This document shows, piece by piece, positions 2,946-30,004 of a stretch of DNA of 37,132 nucleotides. A model generated the notes under the pieces. The model made no database searches and was not told the origin of the DNA. It saw only the letters and a program-made list of their open reading frames with translations. The translations under genes were made by a program, and so were the position numbers. Origin of the DNA: a virus. Every line of letters begins with the position of its first letter. Position 1 is the first letter of the stretch. The DNA lies in IMG/VR virus record IMGVR_UViG_3300046796_000451, positions 1 to 37,132 of that record; one strand, written 5' to 3'.

Positions 2946-4052
2946 TTAGATTCCTGGAGGGGTGCCTGTGGAGTTGAGCCAGTTCCAACGGTTCGCCCAG
3001 TTCTGGGAATCGAGACCGAGTTGGCCCGAAGCAAGCATTGCATTGATTTCGCCTAGCTCCTTCTGTAGGGCTAGTTGCTGATCGGCTGTGAGGAGGGTGC
3101 CCATCTCTTGGAGGGCCTGAGTGATTTCACCTCTACGGGCTGTTAGCTCATTTTGCATGAGGGAGGCCTGGAGGGAGCCTGTAGCCTGAGCTGCGTGTTC
3201 TGAGGAGAGTCTACGCTCAGCACCTAGATTAGCATCAGGACCCTCTGATTCAGCCAGCTGGTCAATGTAGTCTCTAGCACCTCTAGTCTGCTGGGCACCA
3301 AAGGCGTTGACCTGGTTGGCAATGATTGGGTCTTTAGGGTCTAAGGCTAGAGACTGTGAGGCCCTGCTCATGAGCATGTTGTAAAGATCATTTGAGCGGG
3401 GGTCTCGGCCTGAGGTGAACATCGAAGAGATATCTCCGAAACTAGATCCTGCTTGTCCATTAAGACTGCCTGCACCACCGGCACCGCCTCCGCCCCAAGC
3501 ATCACCATTAGCATTAGAGACAAGTTTCCAATTACCCTGACTATCATTAACACGATATAGCACACCATTAATATAAAGGGAGTCTCTACGACCATATTCG
3601 TCAGTTGGGCCATCTTGGGTAATATAGCCCTTCTGCTGTAGGCTATTCTTAAGCTGGTCAATCCCTGTATGATCTTTGTTATCATTGCTAAGCGCGTTGT
3701 TTGGTAACGACTTTGCAATATCGTTAAAGTCATTCGAAAGTTTTGTGTTATCCACCTGTGGCATCGGGATGGTACCAGAGGTCGAACCATCGGGATTCTT
3801 CGTGCCACCTTGGATAGGAGTCGTACTACCACTACCAGCTGGAACGCCACCAGAGCCAGGTTGTGGGGTTGTTGTACCTGGATAAGTTCCACTTGTACTT
3901 GTAGAAGGAGTAGTAGTAGTGTCAGGCGGTTGGGTAACTGGCCCATTAGATCCAAACCCACCAGGTCTTAGCCCTGTAGGTGAGGAGGTAGGCTGGGTCG
4001 TATTAGTGGTACGCTGGTTAGCTCGGGTAATTGTAGGATCGTCTAGGGCCAT
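2946..4052 (-). CDS. Putative ejection protein with Thr/Pro/Gly-rich N-terminus (368 aa)
   Basis: Residues 1 to about 100 are low-complexity T/P/S/G sequence. A small globular segment around 125-180 (RRDSLYINGVLYRVNDSQGNW) follows, then a Gly-rich linker. The C-terminal 150 residues are helical and contain an AQQTRGARDYIDQLAE / GAERRLSSEHAAQ / RRGEITQALQEMGTLL pattern, which I have seen in terminal late-operon proteins of uncultured podovirus-like phages. SD AAGGA lies upstream of ATG 4052, and the gene is 13 nt ahead of the Gly/Ala-rich protein. Together with the next three genes it makes up the likely DNA-injection module. Family assignment is from memory of the pattern, not from a search. 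Confidence 0.78.
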   Translation of the reverse strand: MALDDPTITRANQRTTNTTQPTSSPTGLRPGGFGSNGPVTQPPDTTTTPSTSTSGTYPGTTTPQPGSGGVPAGSGSTTPIQGGTKNPDGSTSGTIPMPQVDNTKLSNDFNDIAKSLPNNALSNDNKDHTGIDQLKNSLQQKGYITQDGPTDEYGRRDSLYINGVLYRVNDSQGNWKLVSNANGDAWGGGGAGGAGSLNGQAGSSFGDISSMFTSGRDPRSNDLYNMLMSRASQSLALDPKDPIIANQVNAFGAQQTRGARDYIDQLAESEGPDANLGAERRLSSEHAAQATGSLQASLMQNELTARRGEITQALQEMGTLLTADQQLALQKELGEINAMLASGQLGLDSQNWANRWNWLNSTGTPPGI

Positions 4053-22861: not shown

Positions 22862-23296
22862 CTAGTTCTTAACCACACCTGTAAGGGTGATAGAAGAGGC
22901 TCCTGTGTAGGTGCCTACAGTTGTGTACTTGACTCTAAGCTGTGATCCTAGGAGACCTGTGAGGATAGTGTTGACTGTGAGGGCGCCGTCGCCTGGGGTG
23001 ATTGCTGGAGCTAGGGCGATGCAGGTAACAACCGCTGAGACCTTCGTGGCTGTTGTGGTTGCGAAGCTAAACTCCATGATATCGATCCAGGTGTGACCGT
23101 TATCGAGGGTGGTTTGGACGAAGAAGTCTGCTGAGGTTCCACCACCAACACGCACGAAAGTAGCCTGAACAGCAAGATAGTTCATGCCATCAAGGTTCAG
23201 GATTGGAGTAGAGGTTGATCCAGTTACAGCAGCTGCTAAGGTTGTAGTAGGGAGAAGTGTGAGAAACCTTCCACCTGAGATTGTATGTGATAGCAT
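22862..23296 (-). CDS. Beta-rich virion protein (144 aa)
   Basis: Pattern LDGMNYLAVQATFVRVGGGT, ADFFVQTTLDNGHTWIDIME, LLGSQLRVKYTTVGTYTGAS indicates a small beta-sandwich of the type found among head decoration or fibre proteins. The N-terminus includes a hydrophobic stretch FLTLLPTTTLAAAV, but this is too weak for a signal peptide. It is 2 nt upstream of the 71-aa gene. Function inferred from context only. Confidence 0.75.
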   Translation of the reverse strand: MLSHTISGGRFLTLLPTTTLAAAVTGSTSTPILNLDGMNYLAVQATFVRVGGGTSADFFVQTTLDNGHTWIDIMEFSFATTTATKVSAVVTCIALAPAITPGDGALTVNTILTGLLGSQLRVKYTTVGTYTGASSITLTGVVKN

Positions 23297-25970: not shown

Positions 25971-26005
25971 AGTCCTCCCCACCTAGTTTATAGATGAGGA
26001 GGACT
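25971..26005 (-). terminator. Hairpin after the major capsid gene, probable (partial) terminator
   Basis: AGTCCTCC (26005-25998 on the minus strand) pairs with GGAGGACT (25978-25971), 8 bp with a 19-nt loop, followed by CTCTTTAT. Located 15 nt after the capsid stop codon. It would let the capsid message accumulate above downstream genes. Confidence 0.55.
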
Positions 26006-26019
26006 GTTGGAGTTAAGAG

Positions 26020-26967
26020 TTACGGAGCCTGCGAGATAACTGCTAGACGTGACTTGTTATTGGTCACGAACTGTAGTGCAGAGTAGATCTTGAACACGAA
26101 TGCGTTCTGATCTGGGATCTCGATGGTGTTACCCTTGTCGCGGAAGTACTGCTTCGAGCAGACTAGGTTGTACGACTTGGGGTTGAGGAAGTAGATCTTG
26201 TCTGCACCGTACTGAGAGTAGACATAGCGGCTGGTCTTGAACGCGAGGACCTTGAAGCCTGCGTCGGCTTCGCTGGTGTCGTTGAACCGCTGTAGGGTCT
26301 GTAGCTGCGACTCGTAGAGAGCCTGAGCTGTTGCACCCGAGATTAGGAACTTAGGTGCGAGAGTTGACCCGCTACCCTTTGCCGCTGTATCCCACGCTGT
26401 TGTCATTGTGGCTTCGATATCAGTTGCATCGGTGTATGTGGTTGCGTAGTTTCTCCACCATGTTTCCACGGCTGAGTCGATGGCTCCGACAACGCCCTGA
26501 CCTGTGGTAGGTACTAGGTTGTCTAGACCCTGGAGTTCGTCTCCACCTGCAGTCGAGGTTGTGAAGATGTTGCGCTCGATGAGGTCGTCATGGGTATTGA
26601 TTGCATTCTCAAGGATCTGCTTGACTAGTGCAATCTTCTGGTTCTCGGAGGGGTTCTTTGCGTCATCGCCCTTGGTCCAGACCACGGGAACTGAAAGCTG
26701 AGCAACTGGGTAAGATGCCGAGGTGACTACGATTGTCTTTAGGAGCGAAGCCGTGTCCTGGTCTGAGGCGAGGATGGCTGCGTCTGGGTTCGGACGGTAG
26801 TCTAGGGGTGCTTCGATGTGGTCGCCTAGTGAGACACGAGTAACGGCGCCCTGGCGCTCTAGTTCTCGCATTGCGGCAGACTCAACCCACTGGTTGGCAG
26901 CCTTTCTCATCTCCGCTAGAACAGCTGGGTAGCTGACTGCGACAATCTGTTCAATATCTAATGCCAT
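26020..26967 (-). CDS. Major capsid protein (315 aa)
   Basis: It follows the scaffold gene and has the composition of an HK97-fold capsid protein of the type beginning with helices (AVSYPAVLAEMRKAANQW) and containing the GAIDSAVETWWRN segment with NLVPTTGQG just before it. The C-terminal part has GADKIYFLNPKSYNLV and FVFKIYSALQFVTNNKSRLA, like the last beta strands of the P-domain. No protease is nearby. The SD is AGGT, about 9 nt before the ATG. The gene has a dedicated strong promoter, a long structured leader and a downstream hairpin, fitting the need for hundreds of copies per particle. Confidence 0.88.
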   Translation of the reverse strand: MALDIEQIVAVSYPAVLAEMRKAANQWVESAAMRELERQGAVTRVSLGDHIEAPLDYRPNPDAAILASDQDTASLLKTIVVTSASYPVAQLSVPVVWTKGDDAKNPSENQKIALVKQILENAINTHDDLIERNIFTTSTAGGDELQGLDNLVPTTGQGVVGAIDSAVETWWRNYATTYTDATDIEATMTTAWDTAAKGSGSTLAPKFLISGATAQALYESQLQTLQRFNDTSEADAGFKVLAFKTSRYVYSQYGADKIYFLNPKSYNLVCSKQYFRDKGNTIEIPDQNAFVFKIYSALQFVTNNKSRLAVISQAP

Positions 26968-27424
26968 GTGTGTAGGTACCTATAGAAAAAGGGTTGTTAA
27001 AGGTTAACTTTTGGCTCATTGACGGGGAGTAGAACCCGATAGTTGAACTTTTAACCCTAGTTCTAGGGCACTAACAAGGAAGGACTCGGTCGCAAGCTAC
27101 TCGCTATGGTTGGCTTTGGCTATATTAACGTCCCGTACCGAGGGAAGGACGAAGAGATTATCTAAACAGGGTTCCCTGTCTATTGAAGCAGGTTAGCAGC
27201 CTTTAGCCGGGTATGCCGGTCTACCCACTGATCAGTTTAGATAAGGTGGCGGTCCATCCCCGGCAAGCCGCCGTTCCAGCATCCCTTTCGGGACCGGATA
27301 TGGCAAACCAAGGATGGGCCATATAAAATTTGTTCACTGTAACCCGGTGAGGGGGCGGTAAAGGCTTTATCGGGTGGGGTTTGGGTGATAAAGCCCGTAC
27401 CTGGAGGAAGGAGGAGGGGGAGCT
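26968..27424 (-). ncRNA. Highly structured ~457-nt leader RNA of the major capsid gene
   Basis: No gene fits here on either strand. Read on the minus strand from the predicted start near 27424, it contains a 20-nt polypyrimidine tract, then perfect stems GGCTTTATC/GATAAAGCC (27387-27395 with 27363-27371), ATATGGC/GCCATAT (27318-27324 with 27298-27304), a GAAA-tetraloop hairpin TCCC-GAAA-GGGA with outer pairs (about 27275-27299), GGCGG/CCGCC (27268-27272 with 27248-27252), a 10-bp closing stem TTATCTAAAC/GTTTAGATAA (27235-27244 with 27158-27167) around a multi-branch, CCCTA-GAAC-TAGGG (about 27055-27069), and GTTAAAAGTT/AACCTTTAAC (27046-27055 with 26996-27005; the last two are partly exclusive). 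CCATCC in one loop is complementary to GGATGG in another (27312-27317 and 27254-27259), a possible pseudoknot. The class is unknown; it could be a cis-regulatory leader or a separate ornate RNA. Confidence 0.6.
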
Positions 27425-27430
27425 TTATAC

Positions 27431-27459
27431 ATAGTAGCACATCTAGTACTAAATGTCAA
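27431..27459 (-). promoter_or_regulatory. Strong sigma70-type promoter of the capsid leader
   Basis: Minus strand: perfect TTGACA (27454-27459), 17-nt spacer, TACTAT (27431-27436). It starts 23 nt after the scaffold stop codon and points at the major capsid gene. Predicted transcription start near 27424. Confidence 0.85.
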
Positions 27460-27481: not shown

Positions 27482-28552
27482 TTATTTGAGGGTCTGCACC
27501 TGCTCTGTGATGATATCCTCTAGACTACGATTGCCCTTAGACTGCGAGGGGGATGGTCTTGAGGCTGAGGTGGGGGCTGAGGTGGAGGTTGGGGCAGCCT
27601 TGAGTTCTGCAAGGACCTTCTTACGGGTTGCAGTCTCGACTTCCTTGACCTTCTTGTCGAATTCTGCCTGGGCTGAGGCTAGCTTCGGTAGGACTACGCG
27701 GCGGTAGGCTCCTTCTAGAGAGAGGCGTCCGTCATGCTGCAAGGCTCGGACGATGTCGCCTTCGTTCTCGTTGAAGTGGGGCCACCGACGGGCTTCATCG
27801 ATCTCGGCCTGGACTTTGGGAATGAGCTGCTGAACCTGCTGATGGGCACGATACTCCTGCTCGATTGGACCGAAACGTTTGTCCACTTCCTGGAGGGTTT
27901 CCTGGCGGGCTTGCATGCGATTCCAGGCGTTGAGGGCCTTGAGTCCGTCCATGGAGTAGACCATGGAGCCATCTGAGAGGCGCTGGTCGGGCTGAGGCAT
28001 GTCGTCTACGACTGGGCCTATGGGCTGCTGTGTCTGGACTACTGGGGGCTGGGCTGCTGCCTGGGATTGTGAGGCGATGGCCTGGAAGATCTCCCGATAG
28101 GCTGGGATGGTTGCTAGCATCTCTAGGAATCGCTGAGGATCGTTGGCTAGAACCTGCTCGAACTGGGCTACCTTTGTTAGTCTACCTTCGTAGTCCTTGA
28201 CCTTAGCCTCATATTGGTCGAGCTGGGGCTTGTAGGTGGACTCGACCTCCTTGGCCTGGCGTTCAACGATCTTCTTGACGCGTGAGTAGGGGATCCTGTT
28301 CTCACGGCCTGGGGAAGACTGGGAGGGGATACCGAACTTCTTGGAGAACTCGTCTTCCTCCTTAGGCTCGGCTGCCTGGGCTACAGGAGAGGCGGCTTCG
28401 GGAGCTGGGTCAGGGGTAGGAGTGTCGGAGAGAGAGGCATCTGGGGCAGCCTCGACGGTTTCAGGGGTATCTGAGGAGGTGTCGTCGGCTGGGGTGACGG
28501 CATCTTCAATGGAGCCTGTGATGACGTCTTCGAGGTCGATTGGGTCTGACAT
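27482..28552 (-). CDS. Capsid scaffolding protein (356 aa)
   Basis: Located between the portal module and the capsid gene. The first 65 residues are acidic and Pro/Ala/Thr-rich, followed by EFSKKFGIPSQS and a long charged coiled coil (about 85-135: RVKKIVERQAKEVESTYKPQ, YEAKVKDYEGRLTKV). A central Gln/Pro-rich linker and a second helical half follow (LQEVDKRFGPIEQEYRAHQQ, ASAQAEFDKKVKEVETATRK), ending in a basic tail. This is the classic composition of a phage scaffold, which guides capsid assembly and then leaves. SD AAGGA precedes ATG 28552. Confidence 0.82.
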   Translation of the reverse strand: MSDPIDLEDVITGSIEDAVTPADDTSSDTPETVEAAPDASLSDTPTPDPAPEAASPVAQAAEPKEEDEFSKKFGIPSQSSPGRENRIPYSRVKKIVERQAKEVESTYKPQLDQYEAKVKDYEGRLTKVAQFEQVLANDPQRFLEMLATIPAYREIFQAIASQSQAAAQPPVVQTQQPIGPVVDDMPQPDQRLSDGSMVYSMDGLKALNAWNRMQARQETLQEVDKRFGPIEQEYRAHQQVQQLIPKVQAEIDEARRWPHFNENEGDIVRALQHDGRLSLEGAYRRVVLPKLASAQAEFDKKVKEVETATRKKVLAELKAAPTSTSAPTSASRPSPSQSKGNRSLEDIITEQVQTLK

Positions 28553-28684: not shown

Positions 28685-28758
28685 GCAAAATTGTTAATGA
28701 TTTTAACGATTTGCGTGAGTGAGTTAACTCAACCCTAGTGTATGAGTGATTAACTCAA
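28685..28758. promoter_or_regulatory. Palindromes upstream of scaffold and HNH genes (operator-like)
   Basis: 28685-28714 is an AT-rich inverted repeat (GCAAA ... TTTGC and TTGTTAA ... TTAACGA, one bulged A). 28720-28731 is the perfect palindrome TGAGTTAACTCA, and a related half-site TTAACTCAA recurs at 28750-28758. They lie between the divergent scaffold and HNH genes. Binding protein unknown. Confidence 0.45.
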
Positions 28759-28773
28759 ACTCACTAAAGCTAC

Positions 28774-28798
28774 GGACAACCCTTTAGGAGGGTTGTCC
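28774..28798. terminator. Perfect 10-bp hairpin between HNH and scaffold
   Basis: GGACAACCCT and AGGGTTGTCC separated by five bases. No U-tract follows on either strand, so it may be a terminator that needs help, a processing site or a protein-binding site. It isolates the HNH promoter from transcription arriving on the other strand. Confidence 0.5.
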
Positions 28799-28834
28799 TC
28801 GCAAAGAGCTAGTTAAGTAGAAAGTAAACTAGGA

Positions 28835-29302: not shown

Positions 29303-29631
29303 TTAATGGAGCCGGTGGCCTTGGCGATAATCTGGGTCCATTCGGCACGTTGTTCGGGGGATAGTTCGGTGACTTGCTTGACACGATGGGAGATGGTGAG
29401 GACGTGAGCACGTTGGACGAAGATCTCCTCGCCTTGTAATAGGATGTCGGGGTTAGCAGGTGATGGCTTGGAGACTAGGGTGATGGTGATTTGGGTACCA
29501 CCGAAGACGATGGAGTCTCCGGCATCATGGTCGATGGAGACTGGGAGGAGATAGCCGTTCTCAAAGAGGAAGTCGTAGTCGTCAATGAGGTGGGTGGGGA
29601 GGTCTCCAGTTGTGATGAACATCTCAGACAT
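29299..29631 (-). CDS. Hypothetical late protein (110 aa)
   Basis: Acidic N-terminus (MSEMFITTGDLPTHLIDDYD), a beta-rich middle (YLLPVSIDHDAGDSIVFGGT, TITLVSKPS) and a C-terminal helix with TELSPEQRAEWTQIIAKATG. It overlaps the HU-like gene start by 8 nt at its upstream end and converges on the HNH gene. In the original operon it would have been followed directly by the scaffold gene. No family is recognised; co-transcription with packaging genes suggests a head-assembly role. Confidence 0.72.
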   Translation of the reverse strand: MSEMFITTGDLPTHLIDDYDFLFENGYLLPVSIDHDAGDSIVFGGTQITITLVSKPSPANPDILLQGEEIFVQRAHVLTISHRVKQVTELSPEQRAEWTQIIAKATGSIN

Positions 29632-30004
29632 TCTCTTTGTCCTTCTCTCGGATGTATTCGTAGCACTTGTAGGCGTAGGTGGGATTGAGGGGGGTGAACT
29701 CGTCGGCCTTGCCTAGGTAGGCGTCGTTGACTAGGTAGTTGACGTAGGTGCCTGGTTTGAACTTAACCTTCTTTCGCCTGGGAACCTTGATAACCTTAGG
29801 CATGAGAGGGGTATGAATTTTAACGGCCTTGTAGGTGACGAGGGAGAAGGTTCCGAAGCCCTTGATTTGGACATAGTCCCCACGCCTGAGGGCTTTGATC
29901 ATGGCCTGGCCTATGATGTACATGATCTTGCGGACTTCGTGGTCGGATAGGCCAGTGAGGGCTGAGATCTCTGAGACAAGATTGTAGTTGGCTTTACTTG
30001 GCAC
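29624..30004 (-). CDS. HU/IHF-like DNA-binding protein (126 aa)
   Basis: Helical N-terminus (LVSEISALTGLSDHEVRKIM) with helix-turn-helix spacing of HU, then the diagnostic DYVQIKGFGTFSLV (Gly-Phe-Gly at 49-51), followed by a basic arm PRRKKVKFKPGTYV (about 75-88), the DNA-intercalating hairpin region. At 126 aa it is longer than the about 90 aa of HU/IHF because of a Tyr-rich C-terminal extension (NPTYAYKCYEYIREKDKENV). HU-like proteins bend DNA; here it could assist terminase at the packaging site, condense packaged DNA, or regulate. The start overlaps the stop of the zinc-ribbon gene. Confidence 0.82.
   Translation of the reverse strand: MPSKANYNLVSEISALTGLSDHEVRKIMYIIGQAMIKALRRGDYVQIKGFGTFSLVTYKAVKIHTPLMPKVIKVPRRKKVKFKPGTYVNYLVNDAYLGKADEFTPLNPTYAYKCYEYIREKDKENV

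Follow-up and report, generated by a model that had tools for sequence, protein, structure and literature searches.

What is the role of the long interval that precedes the major capsid gene of this phage? The window, by which we mean the whole 37,132-base stretch of DNA that was analysed, corresponds to positions 1 to 37,132 of the phage record IMGVR_UViG_3300046796_000451. The capsid gene lies on its minus strand (26020-26967) and codes for a protein of 315 residues that matches the PHROG family phrog_9953, annotated as major head protein (E 7.9e-30). Its start is separated by 514 nt, with no long gene inside, from a 356-residue ORF also carried by the minus strand (27482-28552). The first-pass annotation had called this ORF the scaffold gene; the position fits, but Pfam and PHROG give no match, and we consider it a scaffold gene by position only. 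The same annotation had taken the gap as exceptional among late genes spaced by 0 to 30 nt. Of the 34 successive gene spacings that we picked from the ORF list of the window, 25 are indeed 30 nt or less, but nine are larger, including 465 and 746 nt; the capsid gap is thus not unique in the window.

The 746-nt gap is found upstream of the scaffold-position ORF, and part of it (28700-28799) has a local folding z of about -6 on both strands; a hairpin GGACAACCC...GGGTTGTCC is included in that region. An HU-like DNA-binding protein (PF00216, E 8.3e-16) is also encoded among the head genes (29624-30004, minus strand), between a 725-residue ORF in the portal position and the scaffold-position ORF.

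Capsid searches of viral contigs yielded 62 loci, including the twin of the window, contig L001 (97,163 bases), which is identical to it over a 6,945-base stretch around the capsid gene. In genome contigs, 68 stretches fitted the search patterns, and none of them was confirmed as a relative. The contig of L001 contains another locus, L063, where a 161-residue ORF (2992-3477) shows 32% identity to residues 5-132 of the capsid protein. The ORF directly before it weakly matches an exonuclease, and the head genes are distant; the 161-residue ORF appears to be a free-standing homologue of a capsid fragment.

The first-pass annotation had proposed that the capsid gene has its own promoter, and our analyses agree. 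A sigma-70-type promoter is present on the minus strand (27431-27459), with a perfect -35 box (TTGACA, 27459-27454), a 17-nt spacer and a good -10 box (TACTAT, 27436-27431) preceded by TG. The predicted transcription start, at about 27425, defines a leader of 458 nt (26968-27425, minus strand), in keeping with the ~457 nt first estimated. Using a strict promoter rule (TTGACA, 16-18 nt, TAnnnT), we found a promoter of the same type in the first 130 nt of the capsid gap in 13 of the 15 near loci, L001 counted (mean in shuffled sequences, 0.06), and in the capsid gap of six of the 39 far loci (shuffled mean, 0.02). Just 3' of the capsid gene, a hairpin with a 15-pair stem and a T-rich tail (25971-26005, minus strand) resembles a terminator; a scan of the window gave five such sites compared with 4.5 in shuffles, so that this hairpin alone is weak evidence. 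The best reading is that the capsid gene is a transcription unit of its own, made up of promoter, leader, capsid gene and terminator-like hairpin, of which the conservation of the promoter has been computed. In four relatives (L014, L023, L026 and L027), the -35 box of the capsid promoter lies in or beside an inverted repeat of ~10-12 bp, identified by eye, that might be an operator. A leader peptide was considered and rejected, as the window leader holds only ORFs of up to 38 residues, with no clear Shine-Dalgarno (SD) sequence by eye; a 67-residue ORF begins at 27440, before the predicted transcription start.

The leader was also described at first as structured. On the transcribed strand, its predicted folding energy is -142.6 kcal/mol, whereas 100 dinucleotide shuffles average -124.5 (z -3.20) and none of them folds as well; the opposite strand shows no excess folding (z 0.38). 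The capsid gaps of 19 relatives, analysed with 30 shuffles each, span z values from -0.0 to -6.4, with -3.7 for the gap of the window in the same run, and the folding of the window leader is therefore ordinary for its family of capsid loci. Four helices stand out as well defined: a 4+10-bp hairpin (27401-27357), an 11-bp stem (27317-27254) with a GAAA-capped arm, an 8-bp hairpin and a 19-bp pairing at the 3' end. The first two make up structured body domain 1 (27250-27403, minus strand), and the GAAA hairpin that had been noticed there is present in the predicted ensemble, its CCC/GGG stem having a probability of 0.99. Domain 2 (27110-27249, minus strand) is a multibranch region with competing pairings. 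The 10-bp closing stem reported for it, between TTATCTAAAC (from 27244) and GTTTAGATAA (from 27167), exists as letters, but the model prefers the competing 8-bp hairpin (27182-27163, probability 0.94 in the predicted ensemble).

We searched 57 loci, namely L001 and 56 others including L063, with covariance models of the two domains, R1 (27250-27403) and R2 (27110-27249); as single-sequence models, they could miss distant homologues. R1 found L001 (E 1.9e-49), its next match being at chance level (E 3.6), and R2 found L001 alone (E 1.1e-47), with nothing else up to E 5. A blastn search of the leader against the upstream parts of L001 to L018 similarly returned only L001, an all-against-all comparison of 61 gaps left L001 without a partner and showed tRNA and other fragments common to the relatives, and a comparison of the leader with phage records gave no DNA match. 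The Rfam search suggested by the first-pass annotation gave no match to the leader at gathering scores, nor at E values up to 5. As far as these comparisons reach, the two body domains thus appear to be private to the window phage. Relatives with the same promoter and unrelated leaders, which that annotation had named as the observation that would speak against its proposal, are largely what we found for the body of the leader: the promoter is kept in 13 of the 15 near loci, their leader bodies do not match that of the window, and in eight of 14 near loci this place is taken by tRNAs or tRNA-like RNAs.

The part of the leader that does have a counterpart in the relatives is its 3' end. We noticed there a predicted hairpin (26971-27076, minus strand; mean helix probabilities of 0.81-0.99), absent from the helices first listed, in which 27076-27053 pairs with 26995-26971 over 19 bp and buries the ribosome-binding site (RBS) of the capsid gene. 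The pairings are 27076-27074 with 26973-26971, 27071-27067 with 26980-26976, 27065-27061 with 26987-26983, and 27058-27053 with 26995-26990. The weak SD sequence of the capsid gene, AGGTAC (26981-26976), is within this hairpin. Opening of the SD zone is predicted to cost 9.2 kcal/mol compared with 4.4 in shuffled leaders (ranks of 1/60 and 2/200). Among 14 other gene starts of the window, that at 28552 reaches 6/200 and the next best 14/200. The suggestion that the leader is a cis-regulator of capsid synthesis would hold for its last ~110 nt, by way of an RBS sequestration that had not been listed, and not for the rest.

We asked how general this feature is by computing how much free energy it takes to open positions -18 to -5 in leaders of up to 130 nt. 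For the null, dinucleotide shuffling (60 times) was applied to the upstream part, leaving the last 20 nt of the leader and 15 coding nt unchanged. Thirteen of the 62 loci were dropped beforehand: the copies L029, L035, L045 and L050; L044 and L062, whose leaders measure just 12 and 7 nt; L013, L021, L024 and L034, whose start codon is unsettled; L025 and L049, for which the end or start of the upstream gene is unsettled; and the paralogue L063. The pairs L036/L037 and L026/L032, with identities of 82% across the gap and 86% across 155 nt, respectively, were retained with both members, and a few other loci share shorter stretches. In the remaining 49 capsid leaders, L001 among them, opening of the SD zone costs 10.2 kcal/mol on average compared with 7.3 for the shuffles, and 47 are above their shuffled mean; L040 and L052 show no excess cost. 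The mean rank fraction is 0.136 (0.5 expected under the null, standard error 0.041), with 28 of the 49 at or below 0.1. It amounts to 0.083 for the 14 near loci and 0.158 for the 35 far leaders.

This signal is local to the RBS of the capsid gene, since neighbouring gene starts are close to 0.5 and it fades with upstream shifts. Thus, the starts of the upstream genes in this set of loci (n=48, the start with the best SD being taken) have a mean rank fraction of 0.522, with four at or below 0.1, and those of the downstream genes (n=41) a mean of 0.501. In the position control, the value of 0.153 at the RBS becomes 0.243, 0.435, 0.556, 0.626, 0.552 and 0.594 after upstream shifts of 15, 30, 45, 60, 80 and 100 nt, respectively. 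The metric also flagged T4 gene e, a known gate used as a positive control (0/200), and not the capsid starts of T7 (gene 10), lambda (E) and T4 (gene 23). Among six named distant relatives of the capsid, Mx8 (2/200), Mx9 (3/200) and ctMlz233 (3/200) score, and BUCT555, ct52p938 and 45A6 show no excess cost (61, 89 and 147 of 200, respectively); p82 of Mx9, the gene next to the capsid gene, scores as well (7/200). Our first measure was the mean pairing probability of the SD, which gave a weaker contrast (0.79 vs 0.71 for capsid genes, 0.61 vs 0.57 for upstream-gene starts). As this measure saturates, it was replaced by the opening energy after the first result, and the neighbour, position and T4 gene e controls used the latter. 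The anti-SD motif CCTCC occurs 26 times in 48 leaders for 13.9 expected, which brings minor support.

At least five of 12 SD-zone bases are paired to the upstream arm in 47 of the 49 leaders. By opening cost, the window and the 47 leaders above their shuffled mean are, like the T4 gene e type of leader, predicted to pair their SD zone with an upstream strand above chance. All of this evidence comes from single-sequence energy prediction, as the leaders are unalignable and hence do not lend themselves to a column-wise covariation test. For leaders with a predicted transcription start, we also folded whole transcripts, the five longest being cut to their last 700 nt. The promoter transcript holds the arm in 17 of 18 (L024, the 19th, was left out), the exception being L020, whose pairing is lost once the whole transcript is folded.

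We therefore favour, with a probability of about 0.68, a promoter-driven capsid unit whose predicted hairpin sequesters the RBS, the pairing being kept across the family though the sequence is not. The upstream strand would fold over the SD zone and make its opening costly, its position being 96-106 nt before the start codon in the window and somewhere between 20 and 110 nt in most relatives. Capsid translation would be held low until the helix is opened; that the helix lowers translation in vivo is what we infer from T4 gene e. Against this reading, a strong block on a protein needed in bulk would be odd unless it is lifted; the gate is presumably regulated. Since the promoter transcript carries both arms of the hairpin, the choice of this promoter would leave the gate closed, unlike in T4 gene e. 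Candidate openers include a protein such as the capsid or a partner, a cut by RNase III or RNase P, or ribosome traffic. Upstream of the gate, the leader would be a free-evolving site, occupied in relatives by tRNAs, CCA-ended tRNA-like RNAs and endonuclease genes, and in the window phage by private structured sequence and one decayed piece of a tRNA.

The inserted endonuclease genes were found in four of 10 gap ORFs scanned. They code for proteins with Endonuclease VII-like (Endonuclease_7) domains in the capsid leaders of L003 and L024 and with T5orf172/MUG113 domains, which we take to be GIY-YIG-like, in those of L010 and L017. Endonuclease genes in capsid gaps are reminiscent of T4, where segD adjoins gene 23.

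The alternative that fares best is that the leader is mainly a tRNA or tRNA-like locus sharing the capsid promoter and decayed in the window phage, with the RBS hairpin as a by-product; we give it slightly less than even odds. The relatives provide much of what speaks for it. In the gaps of L005, L006, L007, L009, L011, L020 and L042, ARAGORN detected capsid-strand tRNAs; the gap of L053 has four tRNAs on the opposite strand. Seventeen tRNAs of the capsid loci, mostly from the gaps, were used to build a model, R3; their alignment has 91.5% of its cells paired and a strong covariation score (0.907 vs 0.258 in shuffles). R3 added L008, whose upstream gene ends off the contig, L010 and a second tRNA in L020, which brings to eight of 14 (L005-L011 and L020) the near loci whose capsid gene is preceded by tRNAs or tRNA-like RNAs. 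The gaps of L002 and L004 are devoid of tRNAs according to ARAGORN, and tRNA remnants in them were rejected as candidates, the best R3 scores being only 8.7 and 2.7 bits. Some of these RNAs are unusual. Those of L005 (2821-2896), L006 (2422-2496) and L009 (2654-2728) carry either an anticodon loop of 6 nt, TTTTAG, or a stop anticodon, TTA, the latter being read by ARAGORN in L005 and L006. Those of L008 (160-239), L010 (2271-2358) and L020 (2732-2814) have a normal acceptor, D-arm and T-arm and, by eye, an enlarged or hairpinned anticodon loop.

The window leader itself has a weak tRNA-like element (27012-27077, minus strand) with a GCCA end, the T-arm-like sequence GGGTTCTACTCCC and no anticodon arm. 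It is the best R3 hit of the leader (12.7 bits, E 0.0023 without filters) and of the whole window (E 0.15), the E value being 1.5 over 57 sources. It is also the single match in the window to a rule for tRNA 3' halves (T-arm, TTCnA loop, acceptor, CCA), to which four of 5000 shuffled leaders conform. The T-stem has one mismatch, the acceptor forms six of its seven pairs, three of these being G-U by our count, and the T-arm, acceptor and CCA are correctly spaced. Over 1.1 Mb of strand of the relatives' records including the twin (548 kb, both strands), the rule finds mostly tRNAs; its other matches are one minihelix (see below), the twin of the window element and, by our own count, eight non-tRNA places, a background that predicts about 0.003 matches per leader of this length. 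Neither Rfam RF00005 nor the cloverleaf search of ARAGORN recovered the element. A second tRNA in 27163-27245 was rejected: its D-arm-like stretch looks good by eye, but R3 gives nothing above 1.5 bits there on the leader strand. We consider that the element is probably a decayed tRNA remnant whose bases now contribute to the 5' arm of the RBS hairpin.

Other results speak against a by-product of a tRNA locus. The RBS signal is clear in the far leaders, in which the gap tRNAs detected by ARAGORN are confined to L042 and, for the opposite strand, L053. In addition, the signal fades within 30-45 nt of the RBS, and the window element is weak. These points lead us to prefer RBS sequestration, with the tRNAs as occupants of the upstream part of the leader.

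RBS sequestration might itself be relieved by processing: a cut by RNase P in the tRNA-like element, or by RNase III within the long stem, would remove the 5' arm and free the RBS. With 5' ends of the window RNA set at 27060, 27050, 27040 and 27011, the opening cost falls from about 9 to 2.5-4.4 kcal/mol, and it is 2.5 kcal/mol for the RNA starting at 27060. Thus, the gate would open if everything 5' of about 27060 were cut off, or if some factor captured the 5' arm. Candidate RNase P substrates came from a scan of the window and the collected loci for minihelices consisting of a 7-bp acceptor, a T-arm (5 bp, 7-nt loop) and CCA, with 6-30 nt between the 5' strands. It gave seven matches, while nine control trinucleotides gave none or one each. 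Capsid leaders contain four of the seven (L005 2767-2815, L008 241-291, L009 2524-2574 and L010 2218-2266); these four are 49-51 nt long and devoid of an anticodon arm, and each has a tRNA or tRNA-like gene as a neighbour at a distance of 1-5 nt. We took the remaining matches (two in L043, one in L051) as chance. Among the four, seven of 12 stem pairs change on both sides, and 48 of 48 cells are Watson-Crick, the pairing itself being required by the scan. A looser scan of the window and whole records (586 kb, both strands) gave five matches, three of them capsid-leader minihelices, compared with 0-3 for 14 controls. An identical copy of the L008 minihelix is present in L119 (8522-8572). As L008 and L009 are close kin, the independent evidence amounts to about three lineages. 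Among the matches listed in our literature searches, which covered titles and abstract openings and mostly excluded subscription journals, there was no description of an anticodon-less CCA minihelix in phages.

The minihelices of L005, L008, L009 and L010 have the acceptor-T-arm-CCA form of a minimal RNase P substrate. However, the arm is downstream of the last tRNA in tRNA-bearing relatives such as L005 and L009, so that tRNA excision would spare it, and in the window the tRNA-like fold, when forced, reaches only -10.1 kcal/mol, compared with -30.8 for the RBS hairpin with which it shares its bases. Processing as the opener is therefore a rather unlikely scenario. We hold in similarly low regard a broader picture, in which a lineage of largely uncultivated phages, reaching as far as Mx8, would gate its capsid by pairing, the CCA-ended tRNA mimics of its inner clade, including the 49-51-nt minihelix, would serve as RNase P handles or chargeable decoys that time the release of the capsid mRNA, and the window hairpin would be a tRNA mimic turned 5' arm.

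Still less probable is the scheme of T4 gene e, in which a second, late promoter inside the hairpin would yield a short mRNA with a free RBS and the long transcripts would be silent. It is a documented way of lifting such a block for T4 gene e, as described in PMC3014915. However, when 13 near leaders were compared over their final 70 nt, no k-mer was shared above shuffles, TAACTAT in four of them being marginal at best, and the minus strand of the window has no sigma-70-like site in that region, in a scan limited to sigma-70 promoters. Finally, a free-standing ornate RNA of the GOLLD or ROOL kind that happens to precede the capsid gene might account for the excess folding of the leader (z -3.2) and its place in a gap that is a tRNA site in relatives, GOLLD and ROOL being often near tRNA islands according to PMC12286853. 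We regard it as very improbable given the lack of any Rfam match even at E 5, the failure of R1 and R2 to find the body domains in any of the 56 further loci (bar the match at E 3.6), the absence of terminator-like sites on the minus strand within the leader, and the similar z values reached by the gaps of relatives. A packaged or scaffold RNA, another option of the first-pass annotation, is likewise unsupported by the Rfam, R1, R2 and terminator results.

RBS sequestration by pairing, our preferred reading, has a paradoxical side, as the capsid is the phage protein needed in the greatest number, yet its start site looks buried across a family with mostly unrelated leaders. Should this be so, these phages would pass a translational checkpoint during head assembly. 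The gate can be tested in a cultured system, since Mx8 and Mx9 share the signal. Comparing the opening cost of an RBS with those of shuffles and neighbouring genes also offers an approach to RNA regulation beyond alignment-based covariation. Among the matches listed in searches of titles and abstract openings, none dealt with a tailed-phage capsid gene whose RBS is sequestered; as subscription journals were mostly absent from these searches, this is weak evidence of novelty.

How does this locus compare with known systems? The leaders of relatives hold tRNAs (RF00005) and CCA-ended tRNA-like RNAs, whereas the window element fails both Rfam and ARAGORN. With GOLLD and ROOL, both of which are contained in Rfam 15, the leader shares its nature as a phage RNA and a tRNA-rich neighbourhood in relatives; it differs from them in having no Rfam match, no structural homologue in the searched loci and no sign of being a separate RNA. 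For T4 RNA C and RNA D, the role is stated as unknown in PMC3014915. In T7, promoter phi10 lies between the scaffold and capsid genes, an arrangement similar to that of the scaffold-position ORF and capsid gene of the window. T7 also has a terminator after the capsid gene. In contrast with the 458 nt of the window, the leader of T7 gene 10 is 62 nt long (phi10 at 22904, start at 22967), and its RBS is no more closed than those of shuffles (170/200 with the full upstream sequence, 62/200 from the transcription start). T4 gene e is closer: its SD zone is buried by an upstream arm, as here, and the same metric flags it. A 100-fold effect of the RBS-sequestering structure on its translation is reported in PMC3014915. 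The T4 cases named there are the genes for lysozyme (e), soc, 49 and the I-TevI homing enzyme, whereas the gene concerned here is that of the major capsid protein. According to the same paper (PMC3014915), late promoters inside the structure lift the block in T4 gene e; in the capsid unit described here, the transcript of the conserved promoter would retain both arms.
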